Part shown: positions 16,765-40,189 of the stretch, piece by piece
Layout: each line of letters begins with the position of its first letter
Numbering within the stretch: position 1 is the first letter of the stretch
NCBI GenBank assembly: GCA_021793645.1
Contig: JAJYSJ010000003.1
Coordinates: forward strand, 108,993 to 172,992
Direction: 5' to 3'
Origin: Bacillota bacterium
Lineage (GTDB): Bacteria > Bacillota > Sulfobacillia > JAJZYS01 > JAJYTV01
Length of the DNA stretch: 64,000 nt
The notes under the pieces: model-generated
Told to the model about the DNA's origin: nothing
Seen by the model: the letters and a program-made list of their open reading frames with translations, nothing else
The model's database searches: none
Program-made: the position numbers and the translations under genes

Positions 16765-17532
16765 TCAACTGGCCCTTGATTCCATTCGCAGTTTGTCGGC
16801 AACCATCGCGATAAATTCGGAATTCGTGGGTTTACCCCGCTCTTTGCTCACCGTATGGCTGAAGATCTTATGGATGGCGGCTAGGTTCCCGCGATTCCAT
16901 GCCACTTCGATCGCATGCCGGATCGCGCGTTCGACGCGGCTGGGCGTCGTCTTGAACTTTCGCGCAACCGACGGATACAGTTCCTTCGTCACGAGCGAAA
17001 GCAGCTCTACATCGTCGATCACCATCAGAATGGCCTCTCGGAGGTAGAGGTAGCCCTTGATGTGCGCAGGAATGCCGACCTCGTGAATGATCCGGGTGAC
17101 CTCGATGTCCAAGCTGCGCGCCATGGGTGCGGGGCCGGCGATGGTGGACGCCTCCGGCGCATTGACGAGTTGGCGTACACGCTGCGCCAGGACGTCCAAA
17201 CTGAACGGCTTAAGAATATAGTAGTCGGAGCCCAATGCGTGCATGCGCTGCGTCAGAGCCTCCTGACCGAACGCCGTCAGGGTAATGATCTTGGGCCGTG
17301 TCTCCCGCTGCTCGCGCGCCAAGCGCTCGAGTACCCCGATGCCATCAAGATGAGGCATGATTACGTCAAGGATCAGGACATCTGGACGCTGCTGGTTCAA
17401 AAGCTCCAGTACCTCGACACCGTTCTCCGCCACCCCGACCAGTTCAAGATCGGACTGCCGGGACATGAACTCGCCAACCAACTGGCAAAACTCCTTGTTG
17501 TCGTCCGCGAGCAGAACACGGACTTTTGACAA
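16765..17532 (-). CDS. spo0A: Sporulation master regulator Spo0A
   Basis: Receiver domain ([14 protein letters not shown]...[19 protein letters not shown]) plus Spo0A_C ([24 protein letters not shown]...[24 protein letters not shown]). TTG start with AAGGAGGG upstream. Confidence 0.98.
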
Positions 17533-17715
17533 GTGGCACCCTCCTTCTTTCCTCGCGTACCAAGGGTTCGACGCCCTATTAGTCCTCCCTTCTCCAGAAT
17601 TGCCAAACCGTACGCCAGCATTCGCGCGACGCCTGGACAGGAACCTGCGCAATCCGTGTCCCGCCGCGGCGTCCGAAGGCGGCGCGGAAGGCGTCGCAGC
17701 GCGGGAATGCGCAGA

Positions 17716-19020
17716 TTACGACGCGTTTTCATCCATTTCCGGCCAAGGTAACAGGTGTCGAACGATCGATCGATGCGACGGCGGCGACACCAGCTCCTGG
17801 TACATCCAAGCGGCGAATGTACCGTATCCACGCGTCGGATCATGGATGAAGACATGGGTGATCGCACCTGCCACACGTCCGTCCTGAACGATCGGTGAAC
17901 CGGACATTCCCTGGACAATGCCTCCTGTGAGCCGTAGAAGACGCCTGTCTGTGATCCGCAGCACGAGGCTCTTTGCTCCGGCGCGGCGGTCGGGCACCAC
18001 GCGCTCGATGCGCAGCCGGAATCCCTGCACGCCACCCTCTCGCAGGACGGTGTACAGCGTCGCGTCACCCGGATGTACCTGACTGACCGTCGCAAGCGGC
18101 AGATTTCTGCCCTTAAGGTGCCTCGGCAGCAGGGCACCTCCCACCCCCACCTCGCTGTTGCGCTCGATCCGACCCATGACCTGCGCCTCATAGCCGATGA
18201 CCCCGATCTTCTGGCCGGGCTTGCCGCGAACCGCCCGCTGCACGCCCACGATGGCCGCCGGCAGGATCACGCCGGCCGCTGGTGCCGCTCCGTTTCTCGT
18301 CAGTGCGACCCGGTGCCCGAGTGCTGCGAAGCGGCCTCGAGCGGGGTCGGAAAAGGTCAGTGTTCCGACCCCCGTCATGCGGTCGCGCACAAAGACTCCC
18401 AACCGATAGCGCCCGAGGGTTCGGTCGAACGCCGGGTGCGCCTCGATCTGCAGCTTGTGCCCATCGCGCTCGATCTGCAGACGCACGCTGCGGTGCAGCC
18501 GTCCCGCGGTGTCCACAAACGCAGCAAGATCACGGTCGCCCGAGACCAGCCGACCATCTACCGAAACGAGGCGATCACCAATGCGCAGACCCGATTCCTT
18601 CCCAGGTTCTGCAGCCGCTCCTTCAGTTGTCGGAATGCGATCGAGGCCCACCACGGTCGTGCCCCGACCGCGCACGACCACTCCGATCGCCTGGCCACCC
18701 AGGGTTACCATGCGGCGCGGTGCAACGTGCACCGCAACCTGCTTCATCGGCACTCCTCCGAGCGTCAGCGCCAGCTTACCGCTGCCGCGCGCCGACACCT
18801 CGAGCGACTGCGGACCTGACACCTCGTGCACGCCCCCCTGCGTCCTCCAACCGAATCCCGGCACCGCCTGCAGGGCGATGTGGTCTCCGGCAGGCAACGC
18901 AAGATAGGACGGCAGGCTGGCGAACGCACGGTACTCTGGCGAAAGAAATCCGACGCCAAGTAGTGCAATCGCAAGAAAACTGGCGATTTTTCGCGTATCC
19001 ACCTGATGTCCGCCTCCCAT
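17716..19020 (-). CDS. spoIVB: SpoIVB peptidase
   Basis: PDZ (GLRIGDRLVSVDG) and S55 peptidase region (AALGHRV, GIVQGMSGSPIVQDGRVAGAITHVFIHDP); upstream of spo0A. Confidence 0.95.
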   Translation of the reverse strand: MGGGHQVDTRKIASFLAIALLGVGFLSPEYRAFASLPSYLALPAGDHIALQAVPGFGWRTQGGVHEVSGPQSLEVSARGSGKLALTLGGVPMKQVAVHVAPRRMVTLGGQAIGVVVRGRGTTVVGLDRIPTTEGAAAEPGKESGLRIGDRLVSVDGRLVSGDRDLAAFVDTAGRLHRSVRLQIERDGHKLQIEAHPAFDRTLGRYRLGVFVRDRMTGVGTLTFSDPARGRFAALGHRVALTRNGAAPAAGVILPAAIVGVQRAVRGKPGQKIGVIGYEAQVMGRIERNSEVGVGGALLPRHLKGRNLPLATVSQVHPGDATLYTVLREGGVQGFRLRIERVVPDRRAGAKSLVLRITDRRLLRLTGGIVQGMSGSPIVQDGRVAGAITHVFIHDPTRGYGTFAAWMYQELVSPPSHRSIVRHLLPWPEMDENAS

Positions 19021-19078
19021 CGTCCGCCTCCAGGCTATAGCGTGCGACACGGCCAGCGATGCAATCCTGGCAAGATGA

Positions 19079-19109
19079 CAGAACGCGCACCGATACGGTG
19101 CGCGTTCTG
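19079..19109 (-). terminator. Hairpin downstream of recN
   Basis: Perfect 13-bp inverted repeat CAGAACGCGCACC-gatac-GGTGCGCGTTCTG; no U-tract. Confidence 0.6.
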
Positions 19110-19170
19110 CCTGCGTCATACTGGCAACCATCGTGTGCCGGCCCAGTGCTCTGTCCGGCATTCCGTCAAT

Positions 19171-20766
19171 CTACGCTTCTTCCAGAAGTTGCGCCGCATG
19201 TTTCAACGCGAGCTCTCCGCTTTCGCCCGAGAGCATGCGCGCGATCTCGCGTACACGTTCCTCCCCCTGGAGTACGTACGCCCGCACGATCGTGCGGCCC
19301 CCCAGGACTTCCTTGCGCAAACCGATGTGACGATGAGCACGCGCCGCGACGACCGCCTGGTGGCTGACCGCGATCACCTGGCGATGCTCCGCCATCGAAC
19401 GTAGGTGCTCCGCAAGGCTGCGCGCAGCGCGGCCTCCGAGTCCCTGGTCGACTTCATCGCAAACCAGCGTTGCGCGTTCGTCGCGCGCGAGCACCGAACT
19501 AATCGCAAGCAGCACCCGGCTCGCCTCCCCACCGGACGCGATCTGCGCGAGCGGCCTGGTCGGCTCGCCGGGGTTCGGCGAAAAATCGAAGCGCACGGCG
19601 TCTTCTAGAAGTCCCTCTTGCACCGCGACGCGCAACGCGGCATCCTGCAAAGAAAGGCGTTCGAGTTCCGGCGCGACAGCCTGCTCCAGCGCCTTGGCGC
19701 CGTCCAGCCGCTGCGCATAGAGTGCGCGAACCAGGTCCGCAAGTTGCGCTTCGGCGTCCGTGATTTCCGCCCCGATCCGCGCGGCCTCTTCTTCCCACGA
19801 GGCGAGCCGTTCAAGCTCTGCGGCGGCCTCAGCGCGGAAGGCAAGGATCTCCGCCTCTGCGTCCCCATACTTGCGTTTCAGCGCCACGAGAAGCGCGCGC
19901 CGCTCTTCGGCGCGCCGTAGCGCGGATGGGTCAAACTCCAACGTGTCAGACAGTCCGGCAGCGGTAGACACGCTCTCGGCCAGCAGCGTCGCGCCTTCCT
20001 CCAAGACGGATACAAGGCGTGCGATCTCCTCATGCAGGCGGGCGAAGGGGCGCAGACGCGAGACCGCTTGCGCGAGCATCTCCTCCGCGCCCTGCGAGTC
20101 GTCGCCGCGCAAGAGGCTGTGCGCGTCGGAGAGCGCAGAAAGGATGTCCTCCTGCTTGCCGAGAAGGTCGATCTGCTGTTCGATCGAGTCGAACTCGCCG
20201 TCCTTCACCTGCGCCGCATCGATCTCCTCGACCTGATGGCGCAGCAGGTCGACCTGGCGTTCGCGCTGGCGAGGGTCGCCGCCAAGTTCTTCACGCTGCG
20301 TGCGGAGATCCACGATGTGCCGTGACAGTGCGCTTGCCTGCTCATAGACGGCCACCGCTCCGCAGAAGCGATCAAGCAGCTGGCGCTGGCGCTGCGGGCG
20401 CAGCAGCGTCGCCGCCTCTCCCTGTGCGAGCAGTTCGACAAGCCCGTCTCCGGTGGCGCGGACCTCCGCCAGCGAGGCGGCTCGCCCATCGATCCGCGAG
20501 AGGCTGCGGCCGCCTTCGGAAACCTCGCGTTCGAGCACCGTCTCGCCGCCGTCGGGCGGCCAGAACACGGCTACCACGCGAGCGCTTTCAGCTCCCTGGC
20601 GCACGATCTGGCGACTTGCCCGCGCGCCCAGCGCCAGATCGAGGCCATCCAGCAGGATCGACTTGCCAGCTCCGGTCTCGCCGGTGATTACGGTGAGACC
20701 TTCGGCGAACTCCAATTCGATCTCATCGACGATCGCGAGTTCGCGCAGCTGCAAAAGGCGCAGCAT
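19171..20766 (-). CDS. recN: DNA repair protein RecN
   Basis: LRELAIVDEIELEFAEGLTVITGETGAGKSILLDGL...LVCDEVDQGLGGRAARSLAEHL. Confidence 0.96.
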   Translation of the reverse strand: MLRLLQLRELAIVDEIELEFAEGLTVITGETGAGKSILLDGLDLALGARASRQIVRQGAESARVVAVFWPPDGGETVLEREVSEGGRSLSRIDGRAASLAEVRATGDGLVELLAQGEAATLLRPQRQRQLLDRFCGAVAVYEQASALSRHIVDLRTQREELGGDPRQRERQVDLLRHQVEEIDAAQVKDGEFDSIEQQIDLLGKQEDILSALSDAHSLLRGDDSQGAEEMLAQAVSRLRPFARLHEEIARLVSVLEEGATLLAESVSTAAGLSDTLEFDPSALRRAEERRALLVALKRKYGDAEAEILAFRAEAAAELERLASWEEEAARIGAEITDAEAQLADLVRALYAQRLDGAKALEQAVAPELERLSLQDAALRVAVQEGLLEDAVRFDFSPNPGEPTRPLAQIASGGEASRVLLAISSVLARDERATLVCDEVDQGLGGRAARSLAEHLRSMAEHRQVIAVSHQAVVAARAHRHIGLRKEVLGGRTIVRAYVLQGEERVREIARMLSGESGELALKHAAQLLEEA

Positions 20767-21260
20767 CAGAGTGTAAGACGGCGCAGGTGCTCTGTGACCG
20801 TGGCCGCCTCCTCTGTCGGGCGCACCACCAGGAACACCGTACGCTCTCCGGCCATCGTGCCGATCACGTTCGGCAGCCTCAACGAGTCGATCGCCTCGCA
20901 GACGGCCTCCGCTGTCGCGGGCAGCGTGTGCACCACGACCATGTTCTCGCTGTAGTCGACCGTCAACACGGAGTCGCGGCAGATGCGCATCAGCTTCTCG
21001 TCTGCAGTGGGCGGCCGCACGTCGCTGACGTAATGCTGGCGGCCATCGGAGCCCGTTCTCTTTAGAAGGCCTAATTCCTTGATGTCGCGGGAGACCGTCG
21101 CCTGGGTCACCGGCAGCCCGCCTTCGCGCAGCCGCTCAGCGAGTTCCTCCTGAGTCGCGATCAACTCGTCGCGAACCAGTTCGAGGATGCGGAGTTGCCT
21201 ACGCGCCTTCTCGCGGGACACCTGACGCTCGGTCGCCGTCCTATTCCCCGGCATGCGCAC
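20766..21260 (-). CDS. argR: Arginine repressor
   Basis: ELIATQEELAERLREGGLPVTQATVSRDIKELGLLK and C-terminal NVIGTMAGERTVFLVV. Confidence 0.93.
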   Translation of the reverse strand: MRMPGNRTATERQVSREKARRQLRILELVRDELIATQEELAERLREGGLPVTQATVSRDIKELGLLKRTGSDGRQHYVSDVRPPTADEKLMRICRDSVLTVDYSENMVVVHTLPATAEAVCEAIDSLRLPNVIGTMAGERTVFLVVRPTEEAATVTEHLRRLTL

Positions 21261-22228: not shown

Positions 22229-23455
22229 CTATCGTTCGAAGTATTCCCTCGCTGCGTTGCCGGCGGCCTCTATGCCATCGTGTCGAACGAAGACGGAGAC
22301 CTGCCAAAGGTCTCGGTAGCGGTCCCACAGCAGCGTCGTCTCCGCATCGCCGCCAGGCGGGGCGTCGAGCGGAAAAATCCCTTCGGGCAGCCGCGTCGGC
22401 ACGCGCATCTCCCGGAACTCCGGTGCGGGCGGGCAGGAGATCACGACGTCCCGCGGCAGGAGTCCGGCGCTGCGGGCGATCTCGCCCTCTGCTTCGCGCC
22501 GCATGGCCGCCGGCGCGAGCTGTTTGTGAAGCGCCGAAAGGCGTTGCTCCCCAATCTCCCGTCGTCCCGCGACGAGTGCGCGCTTATAGAGGCGGCGGTG
22601 CGCAATTCGTTCGCCGAGCGCCGCGGCGTCAGGCCCCCAGCTGCCGTCTGCAAGGAGCGAGAGCAGCGCATCATCCGACAGTGCATAGATCGTCTGTGCC
22701 TCGAGGCCCGCCAGTGCCGCAAGCTCCACGGCCTTCGCAAGCATCGCCCCGGCCGCGATCTTGGCATGATGGAGGTAAACCCGCTCCGTGAGGATGTAGC
22801 GCATGCGAAACAACTGCAGTACTTCGCTGCGCGCATCGAGCCGAACCCGGCCGTGGCGCTCCAGCTGGACGCCCAAGCGGCCATCGAGCAGTGCGAGAGA
22901 CTGCAGGACCCGCTCGTCGTACGTCTGGCGCACTCCGGTAAAGTAGGCGTCCCTGCGCAGATAGTCGAGCAGGTCCGCATCGATCGATCCTGCGACGATG
23001 TCCCTCGCCCATGTCGGCGCCGCCAGGTCGCCGGTAAGCAGACTCCGCGCCTGCGCCCCGCACGCAAGCGCATCCAATTCTTCGCCGACTTGTCCACTCA
23101 ACGCCCGCAGCATGCGCTGGGGCGTGTCGTGGCGCGGCAGCAGCGGGCGCTCGTCTTCGAACGTATGGCCGAACGGCGCATGCGCGATGTCGTGCAGCAG
23201 CGCAGCCGCCACGACGCCATCCGCCCAATCGTCCTGCGAACGCCCGATGGCCGACAGCATCAGTCCCGCAGTATGGGCGGCGCCAAGCGAATGTTCGAAG
23301 CGGCTGTGCTGCGCACCGGGATACACAAGGTAGGCAAGGCCCAGCTGGCGTACCCTGCGCAGCCGTTGCATCTCCGGTGAGTCCAGGAGCGACGTCGCCC
23401 AATCGGGCATCGCAATGTCGCCCCAGACTGGATCGCGAACCAGCATCAGCGCCAC
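22229..23455 (-). CDS. HD-domain phosphohydrolase (dNTPase-like)
   Basis: RFEHSLGAAHTAGLM...AALLHDIAHAPFGHTFE and D..DYLRRDAYFTGV motif. Confidence 0.85.
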   Translation of the reverse strand: MALMLVRDPVWGDIAMPDWATSLLDSPEMQRLRRVRQLGLAYLVYPGAQHSRFEHSLGAAHTAGLMLSAIGRSQDDWADGVVAAALLHDIAHAPFGHTFEDERPLLPRHDTPQRMLRALSGQVGEELDALACGAQARSLLTGDLAAPTWARDIVAGSIDADLLDYLRRDAYFTGVRQTYDERVLQSLALLDGRLGVQLERHGRVRLDARSEVLQLFRMRYILTERVYLHHAKIAAGAMLAKAVELAALAGLEAQTIYALSDDALLSLLADGSWGPDAAALGERIAHRRLYKRALVAGRREIGEQRLSALHKQLAPAAMRREAEGEIARSAGLLPRDVVISCPPAPEFREMRVPTRLPEGIFPLDAPPGGDAETTLLWDRYRDLWQVSVFVRHDGIEAAGNAAREYFER

Positions 23456-24228
23456 GCCTCCTCGACCGCCGCATCGAGATCAAGTGCACCGGCCGGCCCG
23501 ACCCCGAAGTGCATCAGGAACTCCCGGTTGCCCGACGGGCCAAGAATCGGAGAGGGGCAGACGCCGCAGGCCGCAAGGCCCAGATCCTGCGCCAGGGAGG
23601 CGACGTCCTCGAGTACGCGCCGGTGCACCGCCCGGTCGCGCACGACGCCGCCCTTGGCAACGAACGCACGCCCGGCCTCGAATTGCGGTTTGACGAGCGC
23701 GATCACGTCGGCCTGCTGTGCACGCAGCGCGCGCACAGCGGGCATGACGAGCCGCAAGGAGATGAAGGAGAGGTCCAGCGTGAACAGGGAGATCTGTTCG
23801 GGAAGGTCCCCTCCGCGCAGGTAGCGCAGGTTCGTGCGCTCGATGACGACGACTCGCCCATCCTCGCGCAGCGGCAGCGCGATTTGTCCGTAGCCGACGT
23901 CGACCGCATAGACGCGCAGCGCTCCCTCGCGCAACAAGACATCCGTAAATCCACCCGTCGAGGCTCCGGCGTCCAGGGCGACACGCCCAGCGGCGGACAC
24001 GGAGAACCGGCGAAGCGCTTCGATGAGTTTCAGTGCACCGCGCGAAGCGTACGGAAAGGGCGTTTTGATCTCTAATGCTGCGTCCTCGGAAACGGCCATG
24101 CCCGCCTTCCGCGCTGGTTGGCCGTTCACGAGTACCTGCCCCGCAATGATCAGCGCCTGCGCTCGGCTGCGCGTCTCACATAGGCCGCGCGCTACGAGCG
24201 CCTCGTCAAGACGCGTCTTGGTTGACAT
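23446..24228 (-). CDS. tlyA: TlyA-family rRNA methyltransferase / hemolysin-like
   Basis: S4-like N-terminus (RLDEALVARGLCETRSRAQALIIAGQVLVNGQ) and methyltransferase (VALDAGASTGGFTDVLLREGA). Confidence 0.92.
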   Translation of the reverse strand: MSTKTRLDEALVARGLCETRSRAQALIIAGQVLVNGQPARKAGMAVSEDAALEIKTPFPYASRGALKLIEALRRFSVSAAGRVALDAGASTGGFTDVLLREGALRVYAVDVGYGQIALPLREDGRVVVIERTNLRYLRGGDLPEQISLFTLDLSFISLRLVMPAVRALRAQQADVIALVKPQFEAGRAFVAKGGVVRDRAVHRRVLEDVASLAQDLGLAACGVCPSPILGPSGNREFLMHFGVGPAGALDLDAAVEEAWR

Positions 24229-26086
24229 TGAGGGTTTGCTGCAGGCGCTTCGCGATCTGAGGGGCCGTGAGGCCGCACTCTTCGAGCTGCTCCTGGCGCG
24301 AGGCATGCTCGATGTAGCGATCCGGCACCGCAAAGCGTTCGAACCGTCCCTGGTAGCCTCGAGCGGCCAATTCCCCGAGCACGGCGTCACCGAAGCCGCC
24401 CTGGTCCGTCCCTTCCTCCAGGGTGGCAATGAGCCTGTAGTCCGCTGCACGCTGCACCATCTCTGCGTCAACCGGTTTGACGAATCGGGCGTCGGCGACC
24501 GCCAGCGAGATGCCCTGTGCGTTCAGCAGCTGCGCGGCGTCAAGGGCAACCTGTACCATCGTGCCGACCGCGAGGAGCGCTCCATGCGTTCCGGTACGCA
24601 GCCACTCTCCCTGCCCGATGCCGAAGGGGACCGCCTCCCGCTGCACTCCGGGGCAGTTGCCACGGGGATAGCGCACGGCGAATGGCCCATCATGCTGCAG
24701 AGCTAGGCGCAGCAGCGCCTCGAGGTCCACTTCGTCGCGCGGCGCAGCCACGACGTAGCCGGGGATCGCGCGCAGATAGGCGAAGTCGTACAGCCCTTGG
24801 TGGGTCGCACCATCCTCGCCGACCAGTCCGGCGCGATCCATGCAGAACACGACCGGCAGCCGCTGGATGCCGATGTCGTGGATCAGTTGGTCGTAGGCGC
24901 GCTGCAGGAAGGTCGAGTAGATGGCGCAGAGCGGCCGCAGCCCCTGCGTGGCCATCCCGGCTGAGAACGCGACGGCGTGCGCCTCGGCGATCCCAACATC
25001 GAAGAAGCGGTCCGGATGCACTTCCCGGAACCGGACAAGCCCCGTCCCGTCGGCCATCGCCGCTGTGACCGCGACGATGCGCGGGTCCTCCTTGGCGAGG
25101 TCGACGGCGATCGAGCCGAACGTCTCGCTCCAGCTCGTGCCCGACTTGCGGGCCGCCTTACCCTGTCCCGTCTCGACCTCGAACGGCGCCGTGGAGTGCC
25201 ACTTGTTCGCGTCTGCAGCCGCCGGCTCGTAGCCGTGTCCCTTCTCCGTGACAGCATGCACCAGCACCGGCCCGCCGATTTCCCGAGCACGCCGCAGCAC
25301 CGTGCGCAGCATGCCCACATCATGCCCGTCAATCGGTCCGAGATAGCGCACGCCGAGCTCCTCAAAGAGCTGTCCCGGCACCAGCAGATGCTTCACCGAA
25401 TCCTTCATACGTTCAGCAGCCTCGGCCGCCCCGCGACCGACGAGGGGAATGGCGCGCAGAGCCGACTCGACGTCGTGCTTCAGTCTAGCGAATGCGGGAG
25501 CCGAGCGAAGCCGCGTCAGGTAGGTGGAAACCGCACCGACGTTCGGCGAGATCGACATCGAATTGTCGTTCAGCACGATGATCAGATCTGTCCCGAGTTG
25601 ACCGGCGTTGTTCAGTCCCTCATAGGCGAGGCCGCCCGTGAGCGCACCATCCCCGACGATCGCCGCGACGGCGAAGTCCTCCTTGCGCACGTCGCGCGCC
25701 GTTGCGACGCCCAGCGCCGCCGAGATCGCCGTGGACGCATGTCCGGCGCCGAATGTGTCGTGCTCGCTCTCGTCGCGGCGCAGGTAACCGCTTGCGCCGC
25801 CCTTCTGGCGCAGATGCTGGAAGATCGCGCGCCGCCCGGTAAGCAGCTTGTGCGCATAGGCTTGGTGGCCTACATCGAACAGCAGTTTGTCCTTCGGTGA
25901 GTGGAGGACGGCGTGCAACGCCACGACGATCTCGACAGCCCCTAGGCTTGGGGCGAGGTGACCGCCGACGCGAGACACGACATCGATGATCTCGTGGCGG
26001 ATATCGGCACAAACCTGCCGCAGTTCGGCATCGCTGCATTGCCCGAGGTCCTTACCGTCGAGCTGATCTCCCGGTGCCAAATTCAA
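24206..26086 (-). CDS. dxs: 1-deoxy-D-xylulose-5-phosphate synthase
   Basis: GHQAYAHKLLTGR, VAAIVGDGALTGGLAYEGLNNAG, DRAGLVGEDGATHQGLYDFAYLR. Confidence 0.97.
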   Translation of the reverse strand: MNLAPGDQLDGKDLGQCSDAELRQVCADIRHEIIDVVSRVGGHLAPSLGAVEIVVALHAVLHSPKDKLLFDVGHQAYAHKLLTGRRAIFQHLRQKGGASGYLRRDESEHDTFGAGHASTAISAALGVATARDVRKEDFAVAAIVGDGALTGGLAYEGLNNAGQLGTDLIIVLNDNSMSISPNVGAVSTYLTRLRSAPAFARLKHDVESALRAIPLVGRGAAEAAERMKDSVKHLLVPGQLFEELGVRYLGPIDGHDVGMLRTVLRRAREIGGPVLVHAVTEKGHGYEPAAADANKWHSTAPFEVETGQGKAARKSGTSWSETFGSIAVDLAKEDPRIVAVTAAMADGTGLVRFREVHPDRFFDVGIAEAHAVAFSAGMATQGLRPLCAIYSTFLQRAYDQLIHDIGIQRLPVVFCMDRAGLVGEDGATHQGLYDFAYLRAIPGYVVAAPRDEVDLEALLRLALQHDGPFAVRYPRGNCPGVQREAVPFGIGQGEWLRTGTHGALLAVGTMVQVALDAAQLLNAQGISLAVADARFVKPVDAEMVQRAADYRLIATLEEGTDQGGFGDAVLGELAARGYQGRFERFAVPDRYIEHASRQEQLEECGLTAPQIAKRLQQTLNVNQDAS

Positions 26087-26661
26087 AGCCCTCCCCGGCG
26101 CCGCTTCCGCGGCGCTTCCAGGATGTGCAGCGGCAAGACCCGCTCAACCGCTTCGAGCAGCCGTCCCACCAGCCAGACGACGGTGTCCGCTTGCCGAATG
26201 GCAAGCCCCTTTGCTGCTGATTTTAGCCCAATCGTCAATGCCGAGACGAGTGCAATCGATACGATCGCTGCGGCGGCCCGCAAATTCACGGGTGCGATCC
26301 GCACTGCAAGGCTGGCAGTGAGTGCCCCCGACAGAGTCCCAGCGATGTCACCGACCATGTCGCTGCAGACTGTGGCAACGCGGTCCGCCTCGCGCACGAG
26401 GCGCAAAGCCTTGCGTGCGCCAGGTCTTCTTGTCGCAGACCTCGCATGGAACGGCGTCTCGTGGGCGCGTGTCGCGGCCACACCGACGATATCGAAGGCG
26501 ACGCCGAGGAGAATAATCAGCAGCAGAATTGGAAACGCTGAGAGAACTGGCCAGCCGATCGTCGCCGTCTGGGTCGGCCAGGTGACGAGGAGAGCAACGA
26601 CGAACGCCACGGCTGCATAGCGCAGAGCGCGCAGACCGAGGCGTTGCTTGTTCCTTTTCAC
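26083..26661 (-). CDS. oapA: OapA-like (OLE-associated) membrane protein, DUF21/CNNM-like
   Basis: 192-aa basic multi-TM protein (start VKRNKQRLGLRALRYAAV, GTG after GGAGG) directly between dxs and the non-coding interval; position matches OapA. Family call rests mainly on synteny and topology. Confidence 0.7.
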   Translation of the reverse strand: MKRNKQRLGLRALRYAAVAFVVALLVTWPTQTATIGWPVLSAFPILLLIILLGVAFDIVGVAATRAHETPFHARSATRRPGARKALRLVREADRVATVCSDMVGDIAGTLSGALTASLAVRIAPVNLRAAAAIVSIALVSALTIGLKSAAKGLAIRQADTVVWLVGRLLEAVERVLPLHILEAPRKRRRGGL

Positions 26662-26684
26662 GAATGCCTCCAAAGAGAAGGGTC

Positions 26685-27293
26685 GGGTGGAAACGCACTG
26701 GGTAAACGCTGCGTCATAGGTCCAGCTGGCTTTCCCATCCGAGGTACCGGCCGTTGCCGGCCGGCGGTTCCCCTTTCACCCCGATGCGCCCTGTCGCCAA
26801 AGGCGCTGCTAGATTGCCACTCAGGACGCACTGTAATCCCCCGCACGCCTCGCCAAAGGCGAACAGCCTAGGAGCTTTCCTCGCGGCGCGTGTGTTCCCT
26901 TAGCCTCTTTTGCCAAGCGGGTTTCGACCGGCAGCGGCAGCGCTTCGGGGCCCCGAATGCGCACGCCGGAACCCGGCATCCCTCCGCCCAGCTCAAGGCA
27001 GGCTACGCTGTACCAAGCGCCTGGCCATGCCCAGCACCTGGCTACAGGTACAACTCCAGGCCGGAGCTTCATCCGCAGGCGGAGAAACCGCGAACCTGGG
27101 CCTCCGCGGGGGTTGGGTGCGTAACCACATGCCGTTATGGGCGCCCCAACCTCCCTAACTCCCAGCACGAACCCGGACTTGGCGTTCCATGCCCGCACCA
27201 GGAGCTTCATCGATGTGCCCTTCGACGGATTTTTAGGCCCGCCCTAGGGGAGACACGTCCGGCTAGGATACTGCTCCACCCGAAAAGTTCCCG
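26685..27293 (-). ncRNA. ole: Candidate OLE (Ornate Large Extremophilic) RNA
   Basis: ~600-nt interval without a convincing ORF between ispA and the oapA-like gene/dxs, with an extended -10 at its 5' end, several internal inverted repeats (e.g. 27111-27151, 26942-26957, 26747-26764) and a repeated GATGAAGCTCC element. Identity inferred from synteny and length; ends approximate. Confidence 0.75.
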
Positions 27294-27299
27294 TGGACG

Positions 27300-27334: not shown

Positions 27335-28198
27335 TTAGTGCGTACGCTCGGCAAGTTCTTCCAACAGCGTTATTAGACGCTGCGTGTCGACGCCAGCCGA
27401 CGCGGCGCGTGAGAGCGCCGCCCGCGCGATTTGCGCATGTCCCTCGTAAACTGAGCGTGCGCCCTCGACTCCCAAAAAGCGGACGATGTTCGGCCGTTCC
27501 TTGTCCGCGTCCTTATGCAGTCGCTTGCCCAGCTCCGCTTCAGAGCCGACGACATCCAACAGATCGTCCCGAATCTGAAACGCGACCCCGAGGGAACGCC
27601 CGTACGTGCGCAGCGCCTCCACCGCAGGCGCCTTCGCACCGGCCAATTCCGCGCCGGCGGCTGCGGCAGCGCCCAGAAGAGCGCCCGTCTTTGCCCGCGC
27701 GACGCGCACAGAACCCTCCGCATCCTTCGCACCGTCAAGATCCAGGGCCTGACCGCCGACCATCCCGGGGCCGACGCCGGCGCCTGCGGCGATCTCGGCG
27801 ATGGCGCGCAGTGCGCGCTCCGCTGCGACCTCCGGCATCGACCGGGCCAACAGAGTGAATGCCAGGGTCAGAAGACCATCGCCAACCAGGATTGCAGTCG
27901 CCTCGCCGAACGCCTTGTGCACTGTGGGGCGTCCGCGCCGCAGGTCATCGTCGTCCATCGCTGGCAAGTCATCGTGCACCAGGGAGTAGGCATGGATGCA
28001 TTCGACAGCCGCCGCCGCAGGCAGGAACTGCTCCCAACGACCGCCGCAGGCCTCCGCGGAGAGCAGCAGAAGTCCTGGGCGCAAGCGCTTGCCGCCCTCG
28101 AGGGCATACGCCATCGGCGCTGCAAGCGGATGGTCCGCGCCGGGCGCTTTCAGGATCGCTGCCTCGATCCCGGGAAGATACTCGGCGAACGCCTTCAC
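27335..28198 (-). CDS. ispA: Polyprenyl (farnesyl/geranylgeranyl) diphosphate synthase
   Basis: GGKRLRPGLLLLSAEA, HAYSLVHDDLPAMDDDDLRRGRPTVHKAFGEA, FQIRDDLLDVVGSE. Confidence 0.96.
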   Translation of the reverse strand: MKAFAEYLPGIEAAILKAPGADHPLAAPMAYALEGGKRLRPGLLLLSAEACGGRWEQFLPAAAAVECIHAYSLVHDDLPAMDDDDLRRGRPTVHKAFGEATAILVGDGLLTLAFTLLARSMPEVAAERALRAIAEIAAGAGVGPGMVGGQALDLDGAKDAEGSVRVARAKTGALLGAAAAAGAELAGAKAPAVEALRTYGRSLGVAFQIRDDLLDVVGSEAELGKRLHKDADKERPNIVRFLGVEGARSVYEGHAQIARAALSRAASAGVDTQRLITLLEELAERTH

Positions 28199-28419
28199 GA
28201 CCTGCCTTCCTCCACGCGCAAGTCATCTGGAGGCGCGTCCTGCGCGTCGCCGAGCAGTTCCTCGATGCGGCCCTCCGCCTTCCCGAGGATCTCCTCGCAC
28301 GCCTTGGCGAGCTGCATTCCCTCCTCGAACAGACGAAGCGAGACATCGAGCTCTCCACTGCCTGCCTCAAGCTGCTGCACAATAGCCTCCAGCCGCGCGA
28401 TCGCCTCTTCAAACGACAT
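28195..28419 (-). CDS. xseB: Exodeoxyribonuclease VII small subunit
   Basis: [45 protein letters not shown]. Confidence 0.93.
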   Translation of the reverse strand: MSFEEAIARLEAIVQQLEAGSGELDVSLRLFEEGMQLAKACEEILGKAEGRIEELLGDAQDAPPDDLRVEEGRS

Positions 28420-29623
28420 CTTCCGTCTCCCCCTGCGCGACGCGCTCGATGCGCGAATACGCCTTGCCATCCTGAAACCGCAGCGTTACCTCGTCGCCCG
28501 CGTGCAGTGCACCGACCTTGGAGACGGGCGCACCCTCCTTGAGGACGAGCGCGTAGCCGCGCTGCAGCGGCCCCTGTGGGTCTAGCGCCTGCAGCCTGTA
28601 GAAGAGGTTCGAGAGGGCGGCGCGACGCTGCGTCCCCGCCCCGCGCCCCAAATGCTGCAAGAGCCTTAGTTCCTGTGTGAGGCGATCCCGGCGCGCCTGC
28701 ACGATGTCCATCGGCCTGCGCAAGGGCGGCCGGCCCACCAGCGCCGCGACGTGACGCCTGCGCTCGAAGAGGTCACGGCGGGCGCCGCCCTCCAGCCGGG
28801 TGCGCAGTTCGAGCACTCGTGCGAGGAGTTCAAGATAATTCGGAACGCAGAGCTCTGCGGCCGCACTTGGCGTCGGCGCGCGCTGGTCCGCCGCAAAATC
28901 GACCAGCGTGAAGTCTGTCTCGTGCCCGACGGCAGAGACGACCGGTACAGGACTTGCAGCCACAGCCCGCACAAGGGATTCCTCGTTGAAGGCCGAGAGA
29001 TCCTCCTGCCCGCCGCCCCCTCGCCCCACAATCACAACGTCGACGCCTGGGGCGCGCGCGATGCGCTGAAGCTGGCGCACGATCTCGTCCGCAGCACCCT
29101 GCCCCTGCACCCGCGCCGGCGCGATCACAAGGTCGATCGCCGGATGTCGGCGCCGCGCGATCTGGATGATGTCTCTGAGCGCAGCGCCCGATGCGGAGGT
29201 CACAATGCCGACGCGGCGAGGAACCAGGGGCAGCGGGCGCTTTCGCTCTGGCCGGAACAGTCCCTCCGCCTCCAGGCGGCTCTTCAACTCCTGCAGCTTG
29301 AGGAGTTGGGCTCCAAGCCCGAGCTGCTCCATCTCCTCCGCGTACACCTGCACCTGTCCCGCCGGTTCGTAGAACGCCACCTGTCCTGTGACGAGGATCA
29401 TGTCGCCGTCCTTCGGTTCGAATCCGACCTGGCGGAACCGGGAGCGGAACATCACACCCCGCAGCTGGGCACGCTCGTCCTTGATCGAAAAGTAAAAATG
29501 CCCCGAGGGGTGCGCCTTGCAGTTCGCAAGCTCCCCGCGGACACAAACGAGGCGGAGCCGCGGCTCCGCCTCCATGAGGCCTGTCAGGAGACGGGCGACT
29601 TCAAAGACGCCGAGGATCTCCAC
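28409..29623 (-). CDS. xseA: Exodeoxyribonuclease VII large subunit
   Basis: [75 protein letters not shown]. Confidence 0.95.
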
Positions 29624-37066: not shown

Positions 37067-37585
37067 TCACAGCAAGAGCAGTGCGATCGCCATGCCCGCC
37101 GTCGCCCCGAGCGTCCGCCACAGGCGCTCGCCGCGGCCTCGTTCGTCCGCAGCGCGCGTTCGCTGCACCCCGAGGCGCGCAAGGGCGTGTTCGAGATGCC
37201 TGGCATGCTCAGCGCGGCCGAACTGGCCCAGTGCGTCGCCAAGTTCGCCGAGAGCGACGATATCTTCCGGTACGAGGCAGCTTTGCGCACGCATGCGCTC
37301 GAGTTCCTCGCGCCAGACGTCCTGGGCCCGCACATGGCCCTCCAGTCGCCGCGCAACCCTCTGCGCGAACGTCCTCGTGGGTGGTCTGAGAGATCGTGCG
37401 ATCTTCGCGAGCGCCCGCGGCAGTTCAAGTGCGCCGTAGGCGACGTCGCTCTGCAGCAATTGCAAGAGCGCCTGCCATTCGTCGAGTTCTTGCACCCGCC
37501 GCCGCAGCCGGTCGGCGAACATACTGCCCAAAGAATAGCCGGCGATGCCGACCACCAGCGCCAGTGCAATGCGCAGCGCGATCAT
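37067..37585 (-). CDS. spoIIIAB: Stage III sporulation protein AB
   Basis: YSLGSMFADRLRRRVQELDEWQALLQLLQSDVAYGALELPRALAKIAR; position in spoIIIA. Confidence 0.88.
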   Translation of the reverse strand: MIALRIALALVVGIAGYSLGSMFADRLRRRVQELDEWQALLQLLQSDVAYGALELPRALAKIARSLRPPTRTFAQRVARRLEGHVRAQDVWREELERMRAQSCLVPEDIVALGELGDALGQFGRAEHARHLEHALARLGVQRTRAADERGRGERLWRTLGATAGMAIALLLL

Positions 37586-38541
37586 CTTGCAGCCCCCCGC
37601 AGCTCCCGGCCGGTCTCGTCCTCGATGCGCAGCACGATTCCCGGGCGCGCGCCCGGCGAGAGCAGTACGAGGCGCCGAAAGACCCGCTCCTCGATCAGCC
37701 GGCGCATGCTCGGGCGCCGACGGATCTCACCGAGGTCCGCCGCGTGCGCCGTCGCCAAGAGCCGAACCCCCGAGCGCGCCGCGTCGAGCGCCGCCAGGGC
37801 ATCCTCCTCGCCACCCAGCTCGTCCGTCACGAGCACCTCCGGGCCGAGCGAGCGAAGCGCCATGCGCAGCCCGAGGACCTTCGGACAGCCGTCCAGCACG
37901 TCCGTGCGCTGACCGACGTCCCGCCCAGGCATTCCCGCACGGCACGCCGCGATCTCCGACCGCTCGTCGATCACCGCGACCTGGTGTGCCCGCAATCCGT
38001 AGAGCGCATCAGAGGCCGCGCGCGCGAGGTCCCGAAGGAGCGTCGTCTTGCCGCTGCCCGGCGTGCCGACGAGCAGCGTTGGCATCAGTTCCCCCCCGTC
38101 GCGCAGCCAGGGAGCGAGTCCTTGCGCCGCTCCCTCGACGCTGCGGGCCACCCGGTAGTTGAGGCCGGAGACGTCCCGCACGGCGAGCCGCCCTCCGCTC
38201 GCCGTCGCCCAGCGGCCAGCAACTCCGACCCGGTGGCCGCCGGGAATGGTCAGGAAGCCTTGACCGATTTCGTCTTCCCAGGCATAGAGCGAATGCTGCG
38301 TCAGGTGCTCGAGACACTCCCTCAGGTCTTCTGGCGTGATGACCGGTCCCTTGGACCACTCCTCACGACCGATCAGGACGACCCGTGCATCCCGCCCCGC
38401 GCGCAGCCGAACTTCCGTTGCCTGTACCCAGATCTGTTCAGGCGCGGAGTCGAGGACAGATGCGAGCCGAGCGGACAGGTACGGGCGCAGTGCCGCCCAG
38501 ACTCCGGCCCCGTGCATGGGCCGCTCCGCGAGCATGGGCAT
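37582..38541 (-). CDS. spoIIIAA: Stage III sporulation protein AA (ATPase)
   Basis: Walker A LLVGTPGSGKTTLLRDLAR; RVGVAGRWAT..LNYRVAR; VIDERSEIAACRAGMPGRDVGQRTDVLDGCPK. Confidence 0.94.
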   Translation of the reverse strand: MPMLAERPMHGAGVWAALRPYLSARLASVLDSAPEQIWVQATEVRLRAGRDARVVLIGREEWSKGPVITPEDLRECLEHLTQHSLYAWEDEIGQGFLTIPGGHRVGVAGRWATASGGRLAVRDVSGLNYRVARSVEGAAQGLAPWLRDGGELMPTLLVGTPGSGKTTLLRDLARAASDALYGLRAHQVAVIDERSEIAACRAGMPGRDVGQRTDVLDGCPKVLGLRMALRSLGPEVLVTDELGGEEDALAALDAARSGVRLLATAHAADLGEIRRRPSMRRLIEERVFRRLVLLSPGARPGIVLRIEDETGRELRGAAR

Positions 38542-38560
38542 GCCACCACCTTCCGGACCT

Positions 38561-38590
38561 AGTGCTATGTGGCAAGCGTTGGGAATAGTC
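38561..38590 (-). promoter_or_regulatory. Candidate sigma-E promoter of the spoIIIA operon
   Basis: Minus strand GACTATT - 14 bp - CATAGCACT upstream of spoIIIAA. Confidence 0.45.
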
Positions 38591-38647
38591 CAACCGCTCC
38601 GGGCAGGAGCAGCACGTGCAATCGACAAACTCTGTCTCTGGGAAGCC

Positions 38648-40189
38648 ATGTTGGGAGTGGGAATGGTGCTGAGCCCGAGGGAGATCGAGGACCTCACGTT
38701 GGAACTCGTCGGAATCCAGTCGGTGAACGGCACTCCGGGCGAAGCTGCGGCCGTGGAATTTCTTGCCGCCCGCCTGCGAGAAAGCCCCCTTGCGCGTCGC
38801 GGGGACCTCAAGGTGTACCTTCTTTCGTCGCCGCAAGATCCGCTCCATCGCCCCGTGGTGGTTGCGCACCGTCCCGGCAGAGGGCGCTCCGGTGTCCTGT
38901 TGATGGGCCACATAGACACCGTGGGCGTCGACGATTATCTCGATCTCGAGGATGACGCCCTACGGCCGCACAATCTGACTGAGCGTATTGCACAGGGCGC
39001 ACTGGGGGCGGAGATGGCGGCGCTTGCGCGGTCCGGAGACTGGCTCTTCGGGCGAGGGGTCCTCGATATGAAGTCCGGCGTCGCGGCAGCGCTCGCCGCC
39101 TTTCTCTCCCTCGCGGAGTCGGCGCCCGATGGGCATCTTCTCTTCGCTGCGACGCCCGATGAGGAGGGCTCGTCGCACGGTGTGCGGGTGCTTGACGCTT
39201 GGCTCGCGGAATACCTCCCCGCGGCGGGGTTCACGCTTGGCGCCGTCCTCAACACCGACTACACGACGTCCCGTCCGGATGACGCGGGATCCTTCCACGC
39301 CTATGCCGGCAGCACCGGCAAACTGCTGCCCGCAGTGTATGTCCAGGGCATTCCGAGCCACGCGGCGGAGCCGGAGCGCGGCCTGGACCCGAGTGCAGCC
39401 CTCGCGGCGATTACCTCCGAGGTGGCCTACAGCGAGGTCCTGCGCGACGCGGCCGAAGGAGACCTGGCCCCGCCGCCCGTAACCCTCTTCCAACGTGACG
39501 GAAAGCCCTTCTATGACGTGCAGACGGCGCTCTACGCGAGCGCCTACTATAACCTCTTCCACCGGCAGCGAACCCCAGGAGAGCAACTGGAGCGCTTCGT
39601 CCAGCAGGCGCGCCGGGGTGCCCAGGCGTTCGCGGAGCGCACTGTCGCGCTCTCCCTGCCGCCGCTGCGCGTGATCTCGTTCGCGGATCTGGCACAGGCG
39701 GCGCCCCAGGTGATCCCGCCTGCGGTGGACGGGCTCGACGTGCGAGAGGCAGCGCGGCGCATCGTCGCGTCACTTGTGGCCCAAACGTTCCCCGATGAGC
39801 CCGTTGCGGTCTGCTATTTCGCGGGGCCACTCATTCCGAGCGTTGAAAGCGCCCCCTGGGCGCGACTGGCACTCGAAAGCGCAGTTGCCGCGGCAGGGGT
39901 TCCGTATCGCGTGCACCGCTACTACCCCTACATCTCGGACCTCTCGTTTCTCGCCGAATCACGGGACTGGGACGATGCGGCCTTCGTAGAAAACTATCCG
40001 CTTGCCGCGTTCGGCGGCGCCGCAGGGATCCCGCCGCGCTCACAGCTTGCGCCGCTGATGCTGGGGCCCCATGGCTTCGGCGCGCACCAGCGCAGCGAGC
40101 GCGTGCTGCGCCCCCACGCCTTCGAGATTCTGCCGCGTCTGTTGCACAGCACCGCAGAGGAACTCCTGCGGGCACAGCCAGTCGGCTAG
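38648..40189 (+). CDS. rocB: M20-family peptidase, RocB-like
   Basis: VLLMGHIDTVG, GRGVLDMKSGVAAALAAF, ATPDEEGSSHGVR, AYAGSTGKLLPAVYVQGIPSHAAEP. Start could also be ATG 38663. Confidence 0.8.
   Translation: MLGVGMVLSPREIEDLTLELVGIQSVNGTPGEAAAVEFLAARLRESPLARRGDLKVYLLSSPQDPLHRPVVVAHRPGRGRSGVLLMGHIDTVGVDDYLDLEDDALRPHNLTERIAQGALGAEMAALARSGDWLFGRGVLDMKSGVAAALAAFLSLAESAPDGHLLFAATPDEEGSSHGVRVLDAWLAEYLPAAGFTLGAVLNTDYTTSRPDDAGSFHAYAGSTGKLLPAVYVQGIPSHAAEPERGLDPSAALAAITSEVAYSEVLRDAAEGDLAPPPVTLFQRDGKPFYDVQTALYASAYYNLFHRQRTPGEQLERFVQQARRGAQAFAERTVALSLPPLRVISFADLAQAAPQVIPPAVDGLDVREAARRIVASLVAQTFPDEPVAVCYFAGPLIPSVESAPWARLALESAVAAAGVPYRVHRYYPYISDLSFLAESRDWDDAAFVENYPLAAFGGAAGIPPRSQLAPLMLGPHGFGAHQRSERVLRPHAFEILPRLLHSTAEELLRAQPVG

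Follow-up and report, generated by a model that had tools for sequence, protein, structure and literature searches.

The 64,000-nucleotide stretch of DNA that was analysed (the window) carries on its minus strand, between ispA and oapA-dxs, an interval that is almost certainly the ole gene, encoding the OLE RNA of this bacterium. When the whole 64-kb window was scanned against Rfam 15 with gathering thresholds applied, OLE was the sole match: RF01071 aligned to the minus strand at 26671-27295 from end to end, across all 616 model positions, with 393.4 bits, compared to a gathering score of 50 (E = 4.6e-112). The feature was delimited by this match and supported by covariation in 14 sequences of the order. 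RF01071 searches detected no second copy in the whole genome (3.4 Mb, 94 contigs) and no match in any of 14 control genomes. An earlier, sequence-only reading had placed a candidate OLE RNA at 26685-27293 and named the OLE covariance model and conservation among relatives among its checks. The model match, the strand and both borders, which lie within 14 bases of the proposed ones, agreed with that reading, and the interval was kept, with covariation, in related genomes.

The length given by the covariance model, 625 nt, agrees with the ~600 nt expected of an OLE RNA. The suggestion that the RNA might be divergent was not borne out, as its 393 bits fall within the 271-496 bits of full-length OLE matches across the class and the published conserved OLE motifs are present. 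The RNA is a complete, well-conserved and ordinary representative of an established class and does not define a new RNA type. A published survey of GTDB R214 reported 2,822 OLE hits (PMC11332333), and the window's genome group was probably within its reach. OLE, a membrane-associated RNA, ranks among the largest conserved RNAs of bacteria that lack a known biochemical activity. A new complete OLE from an uncultured lineage of probable spore-formers, accompanied by its conserved promoter and the genes of all known partners, extends the natural variation available to structural studies.

Locus and promoter

The gene order on the minus strand is folD, xseA, xseB, ispA, OLE, oapA, dxs and tlyA, followed further on by nadK, argR and recN, the last assigned from its sequence. 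The order from xseA to tlyA was intact as first described, with Pfam and TIGR profile matches for xseA (28409-29623, TIGR00237 over cut-off), xseB (28195-28470, TIGR01280 over cut-off), ispA of the farnesyl diphosphate synthase family (27335-28198, PF00348 with E 2.3e-52; NF045485 with 274.9 bits against a cut-off of 275), dxs (24206-26086, TIGR00204, 768.7 bits) and tlyA (23446-24471, TIGR00478, 225.9 bits), the true start of which lies inside the open frame. The synteny ispA-OLE-oapA-dxs was kept in relatives. The argR gene (20766-21260, PF01316 and PF02863, minus strand) encodes a protein named elsewhere as an unpublished OLE partner (PMC12265935, PMC12054373).

The oapA gene (26083-26661, minus strand), in OLE hosts usually a neighbour of ole, begins 10 nt past the end of the OLE model. 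Its longest frame has 196 codons from the TTG at 26673; the start is probably the GTG at 26661 (192 aa), since this codon sits five bases after the ribosome binding site GGAGG (26671-26667), which lies at the 3' border of the RNA. Genes for Spo0A, SpoIVB and SpoIIIAA are also present in the window (16765-19161 and 37582-38919, minus strand), making the host a probable spore-former.

An extended -10 element, TGTTATAAT, is located at 27308-27300 on the minus strand, at the RNA start where it had been noticed from the letters. The pattern TGNTATAMT was found just 5' of OLE in nine of nine aligned family members (the window, three other members of the genus and five further members of the family), while the remaining upstream DNA has diverged; in 64 kb, with both strands counted, it occurs once, at the OLE promoter site. 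TATAAT-like elements upstream of OLE were also seen in other members of the order. No -35 consensus element was recognised upstream of OLE, so the promoter would consist of an extended -10 without a consensus -35, and the 5' end of the RNA is probably near 27293, seven bases past the -10. No intrinsic terminator was recognised for the window OLE. The OLE RNA of H. halodurans is transcribed from a promoter of its own within a large operon and undergoes 3'-end processing (PMC9723947, PMC11332333).

The missing terminator and the end of the RNA at the oapA ribosome binding site are what would be expected if the interval belonged to the oapA-dxs transcript as a long untranslated leader or attenuator and were no independent RNA. 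This is highly improbable, because the OLE model fits from end to end, the RNA has a conserved promoter element of its own, and OLE is kept in seven genomes of the class with oapA elsewhere.

Partner proteins and proposed function

OapA was identified as a CNNM-like membrane protein from a Pfam CNNM match, its predicted fold and its co-occurrence with OLE. The Pfam match is weak (E = 6.5e-4, below cut-off), as likewise published for OapA (PMC11332333), and a PDB sequence search with OapA gave no match. A structure model built from 39 sequences reached a pLDDT of 87.8 and replaced an earlier model from 11 sequences (pLDDT 57.7), which was discarded. Its six best PDB matches were archaeal CorB and bacterial CorC, with Foldseek probabilities of 0.99-1.00, E values of 0.0075-0.16 and TM-scores of 0.40-0.49; the predicted fold thus resembles CNNM, clearly by Foldseek probability (1.00) but with a TM-score of only 0.49. 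The protein has a CNNM-like transmembrane fold without CBS or CorC domains, and an Asp-x3-Asp pair, D101 and D105, that is invariant in the 39 OapAs. By spacing, without alignment to the H. halodurans sequence, this pair corresponds to D100 and D104, the residues altered in the H. halodurans OapA PM1 mutant (PMC9723947).

The OapB homologue was located by position between map and infA and matched PDB 7k9b, 'OLE-associated protein B' (E 3.8e-5); a KOW domain search for OapB returned only uL24 and, by size, probably NusG. An OapC/YbxF homologue lies between rpoC and rpsL (PDB 4lck YbxF, E 1.6e-15), and a bS21 homologue is present in the genome (E 1.2e-21). With oapA and these three homologues, the full known OLE partner set is encoded in the genome; OapB and OapC genes are found in about 60% and 45% of OLE hosts, respectively. 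The CorC_HlyC domain, the C-terminal domain of MpfA, was not detected in the genome.

Family membership, the covarying structure, the conserved promoter element, oapA and the genes for OapB, OapC and bS21 were observed directly. The sequence of events proposed here draws on homology with studied OLE RNAs. Transcription from the extended -10 promoter would yield an RNA of ~620 nt, probably with additional read-through from the xse-ispA-dxs operon. The RNA would fold into the OLE architecture and may form dimers by way of loops L4, L5/L6 and L9.3; at the membrane, it would be held by the CNNM-like OapA. The predicted binding sites are the kink turn for OapC and the P12.2/P13 region for OapB, with chaperoning or signalling as the putative roles of these two proteins, and the complex would most likely support growth under stress, including Mg2+ stress. 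This function is probably the same as in H. halodurans.

Fold, possible dimer contacts and kink turns

The model structure (156 pairs) was projected onto an alignment of the window RNA and 13 relatives of the same order. In these 14 sequences, 87.7% of the cells formed standard pairs, compared to 38-44% with one side slid by 1-3 columns, and 64 of the 156 pairs were altered on both sides. On each of five measures, none of 500 shuffles came up to the real alignment. Across 47 OLEs of the class, 116 of the 156 pairs were altered on both sides, compared to 64-86 when slid, and the window RNA, folded as a single sequence, outperformed all 20 of its dinucleotide shuffles (z = -3.3). The OLE secondary structure is conserved and supported by strong covariation.

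Two inverted repeats picked out earlier from the sequence were found again as elements of this structure. The repeat GGTTGGG...CCCAACC (27151-27111, minus strand) is stem-loop P6 in the model structure line (helices 3 and 4), in which 93-100% of the cells are paired, and the palindrome TTCGGGGCCCCGAA (26957-26944, minus strand) is the apex of P9.3 with its loop. The cryo-EM structure of the OLE dimer from C. acetobutylicum shows the P9.3 loop as a symmetric kissing loop, bridge B3, with GGCC as its palindrome (PMC12286853). The window RNA likewise has L4, L5 and L6 and retains GGCC at the centre of L9.3, and the GGAG of its J6/7 fits the kink turn of that structure. Of 98 class OLEs, 26 either lack P9.3 or have a short one, including those of four genomes of the same order without the palindrome (G043 and G053-G055), so this dimer contact is not universal. 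Two OLEs of the class carry GGCGCC (L040) or GGAUCC (L098) instead of the GGCC centre; these variant palindromes are in line with predicted loop-loop pairing between two OLE copies.

The window RNA is like the H. halodurans OLE, which works with OapA, OapB, OapC and bS21 (PMC9723947, PMC11332333, PMC12054373), in its length, model structure, downstream oapA, kink-turn 5' strand and promoter of its own, and in a genome with OapB, OapC and bS21 genes and without MpfA. Unlike that OLE, it has high-GC stems, a J5/6 that reads UUAGGG and not the consensus UUAAGG, and, on inspection of the sequence, a P6 without the CCUCCU mimic; its P8 loop is 11 nt longer than the model. The H. halodurans P6 carries a perfect CCUCCU anti-Shine-Dalgarno mimic for bS21, and compensated changes still bind bS21 (PMC12054373). 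Because the mimic has been described in one species and the compensated changes bind, it does not define the family; given the P6 and J5/6 differences, bS21 and OapC binding may differ in the window OLE. The variant 1 and variant 2 OLEs of the TANB77 and RF39 clades (PMC11332333) share the same core, whereas the window OLE has its full length, with P7, P8 and P9 retained and the partner proteins encoded.

For the kink turn, two alternatives that exclude each other and use a common 5' strand have been described, 1a with J5/6 from biochemistry and 1b with J6/7 from cryo-EM (PMC9723947, PMC12286853, PMC12054373), and OapC binding at the kink turn is described in two of these reports (PMC9723947, PMC12286853). 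In the window RNA, the 5' strand CGAUGA in J4a/5 (27207-27212, minus strand), the predicted OapC site, is invariant in the 14 order sequences. Its 1b partner, GGAG in J6/7 (27102-27105, minus strand), is also intact and occurs in 79 of 98 class OLEs; those lacking it are mostly reduced OLEs of two families. The 1a partner, UUAGGG in J5/6 (27153-27158, minus strand), is off consensus throughout the window's genus.

The kink-turn motif was lost in 14 of the 98 class OLEs, all in families f14 and f15. Among the remaining 84, J6/7 has GAG opposite C85 in 82, and J5/6 is variable: it reads AGG in the window's genus and contains inserts in Symbiobacterium-like OLEs. Three of the latter (L032, L038 and L041) have an inverted-repeat-rich insert of ~30 nt in J5/6, where kink turn 1a would form, and an intact J6/7. 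In one further OLE (L027, genome G057), G stands in place of C85 and C in place of G209, with AAG retained in J5/6. This apparently compensatory change would fit kink turn 1b and break 1a; it is a lead and not proof, given that a single event was seen and that the alignment of J5/6 is not certain. Tentatively, and with slightly less than even confidence, we suggest that the kink turn of the class joins J4a/5 to J6/7 (1b) rather than to J5/6 (1a), and that the proposed switch driven by OapC and bS21 is thus not universal. A joint loss of kink turn and OapC was considered and rejected, as f14 and f15, with their short OLEs lacking the motif, retain an L7Ae-family protein in a search that does not tell YbxF and YlxQ apart.

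The drift of the J5/6 strand in the window's genus, along with the loss of OLE in some clades, would suit a degenerate, non-functional OLE remnant in this genome. We regard such a remnant as very unlikely in view of the full-length score, the covariation among close relatives, the conserved promoter, the intact oapA and the absence of an MpfA-type protein as a replacement.

A 129-codon frame (26821-27210, minus strand) is free of stops in the window sequence and in the majority of family members; three or four stops interrupt it in a single family member and in four of five other order members, and the lengths of several relatives across it are not multiples of three, which upholds the initial view that the interval holds no plausible protein. 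A small unrecognised protein from this frame, or from a 138-codon frame on the opposite strand, is practically excluded by these stops and frame shifts in same-order relatives, by the conserved ATG being part of the kink-turn motif CGAUGA, and by variation that tracks base pairing.

Distribution of OLE and OapA in the class

Among 154 genomes of the class, OLE was detected in 100 and OapA in 100, with both in 99 and neither in 53. The two exceptions both lie at contig ends: in one genome with OapA the contig, equal in length to the one that carries L009, begins inside the 3' part of OLE (G047), and in the other the OLE match runs towards the contig end (G065). In seven genomes (G030, G031, G032, G062, G063, G064 and G073), ole and oapA are separated, either by 363 kb or by lying on different contigs, and both are kept, which supports a functional rather than a positional link. 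The class thus holds full-length, reduced, lost and oapA-unlinked OLEs, and this variation helps to separate essential contacts (OapA, kink turn 1b and L4) from dispensable ones (the P9.3 loop and the J5/6 kink turn).

An anticorrelation between OLE and MpfA across the class (p = 6e-12 over 154 genomes) was rejected, because the signal vanished (p = 1) when the OLE-less group f35-f37 was left out; it reflects the history of one clade and gives no independent support.

The OLEs of families f14 and f15 (L105-L118) are reduced, mostly 515-550 nt, and lack the kink-turn motif and P9.3. The CorC_HlyC (MpfA-type) domain was found in 13 of the 14 genomes of these families, compared to 13 of the 86 other OLE genomes, an excess that may represent a single evolutionary event. 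In one further genome (G036), the OLE match beside oapA, near a contig end, is in two pieces (L059, model positions 191-277 and 279-595).
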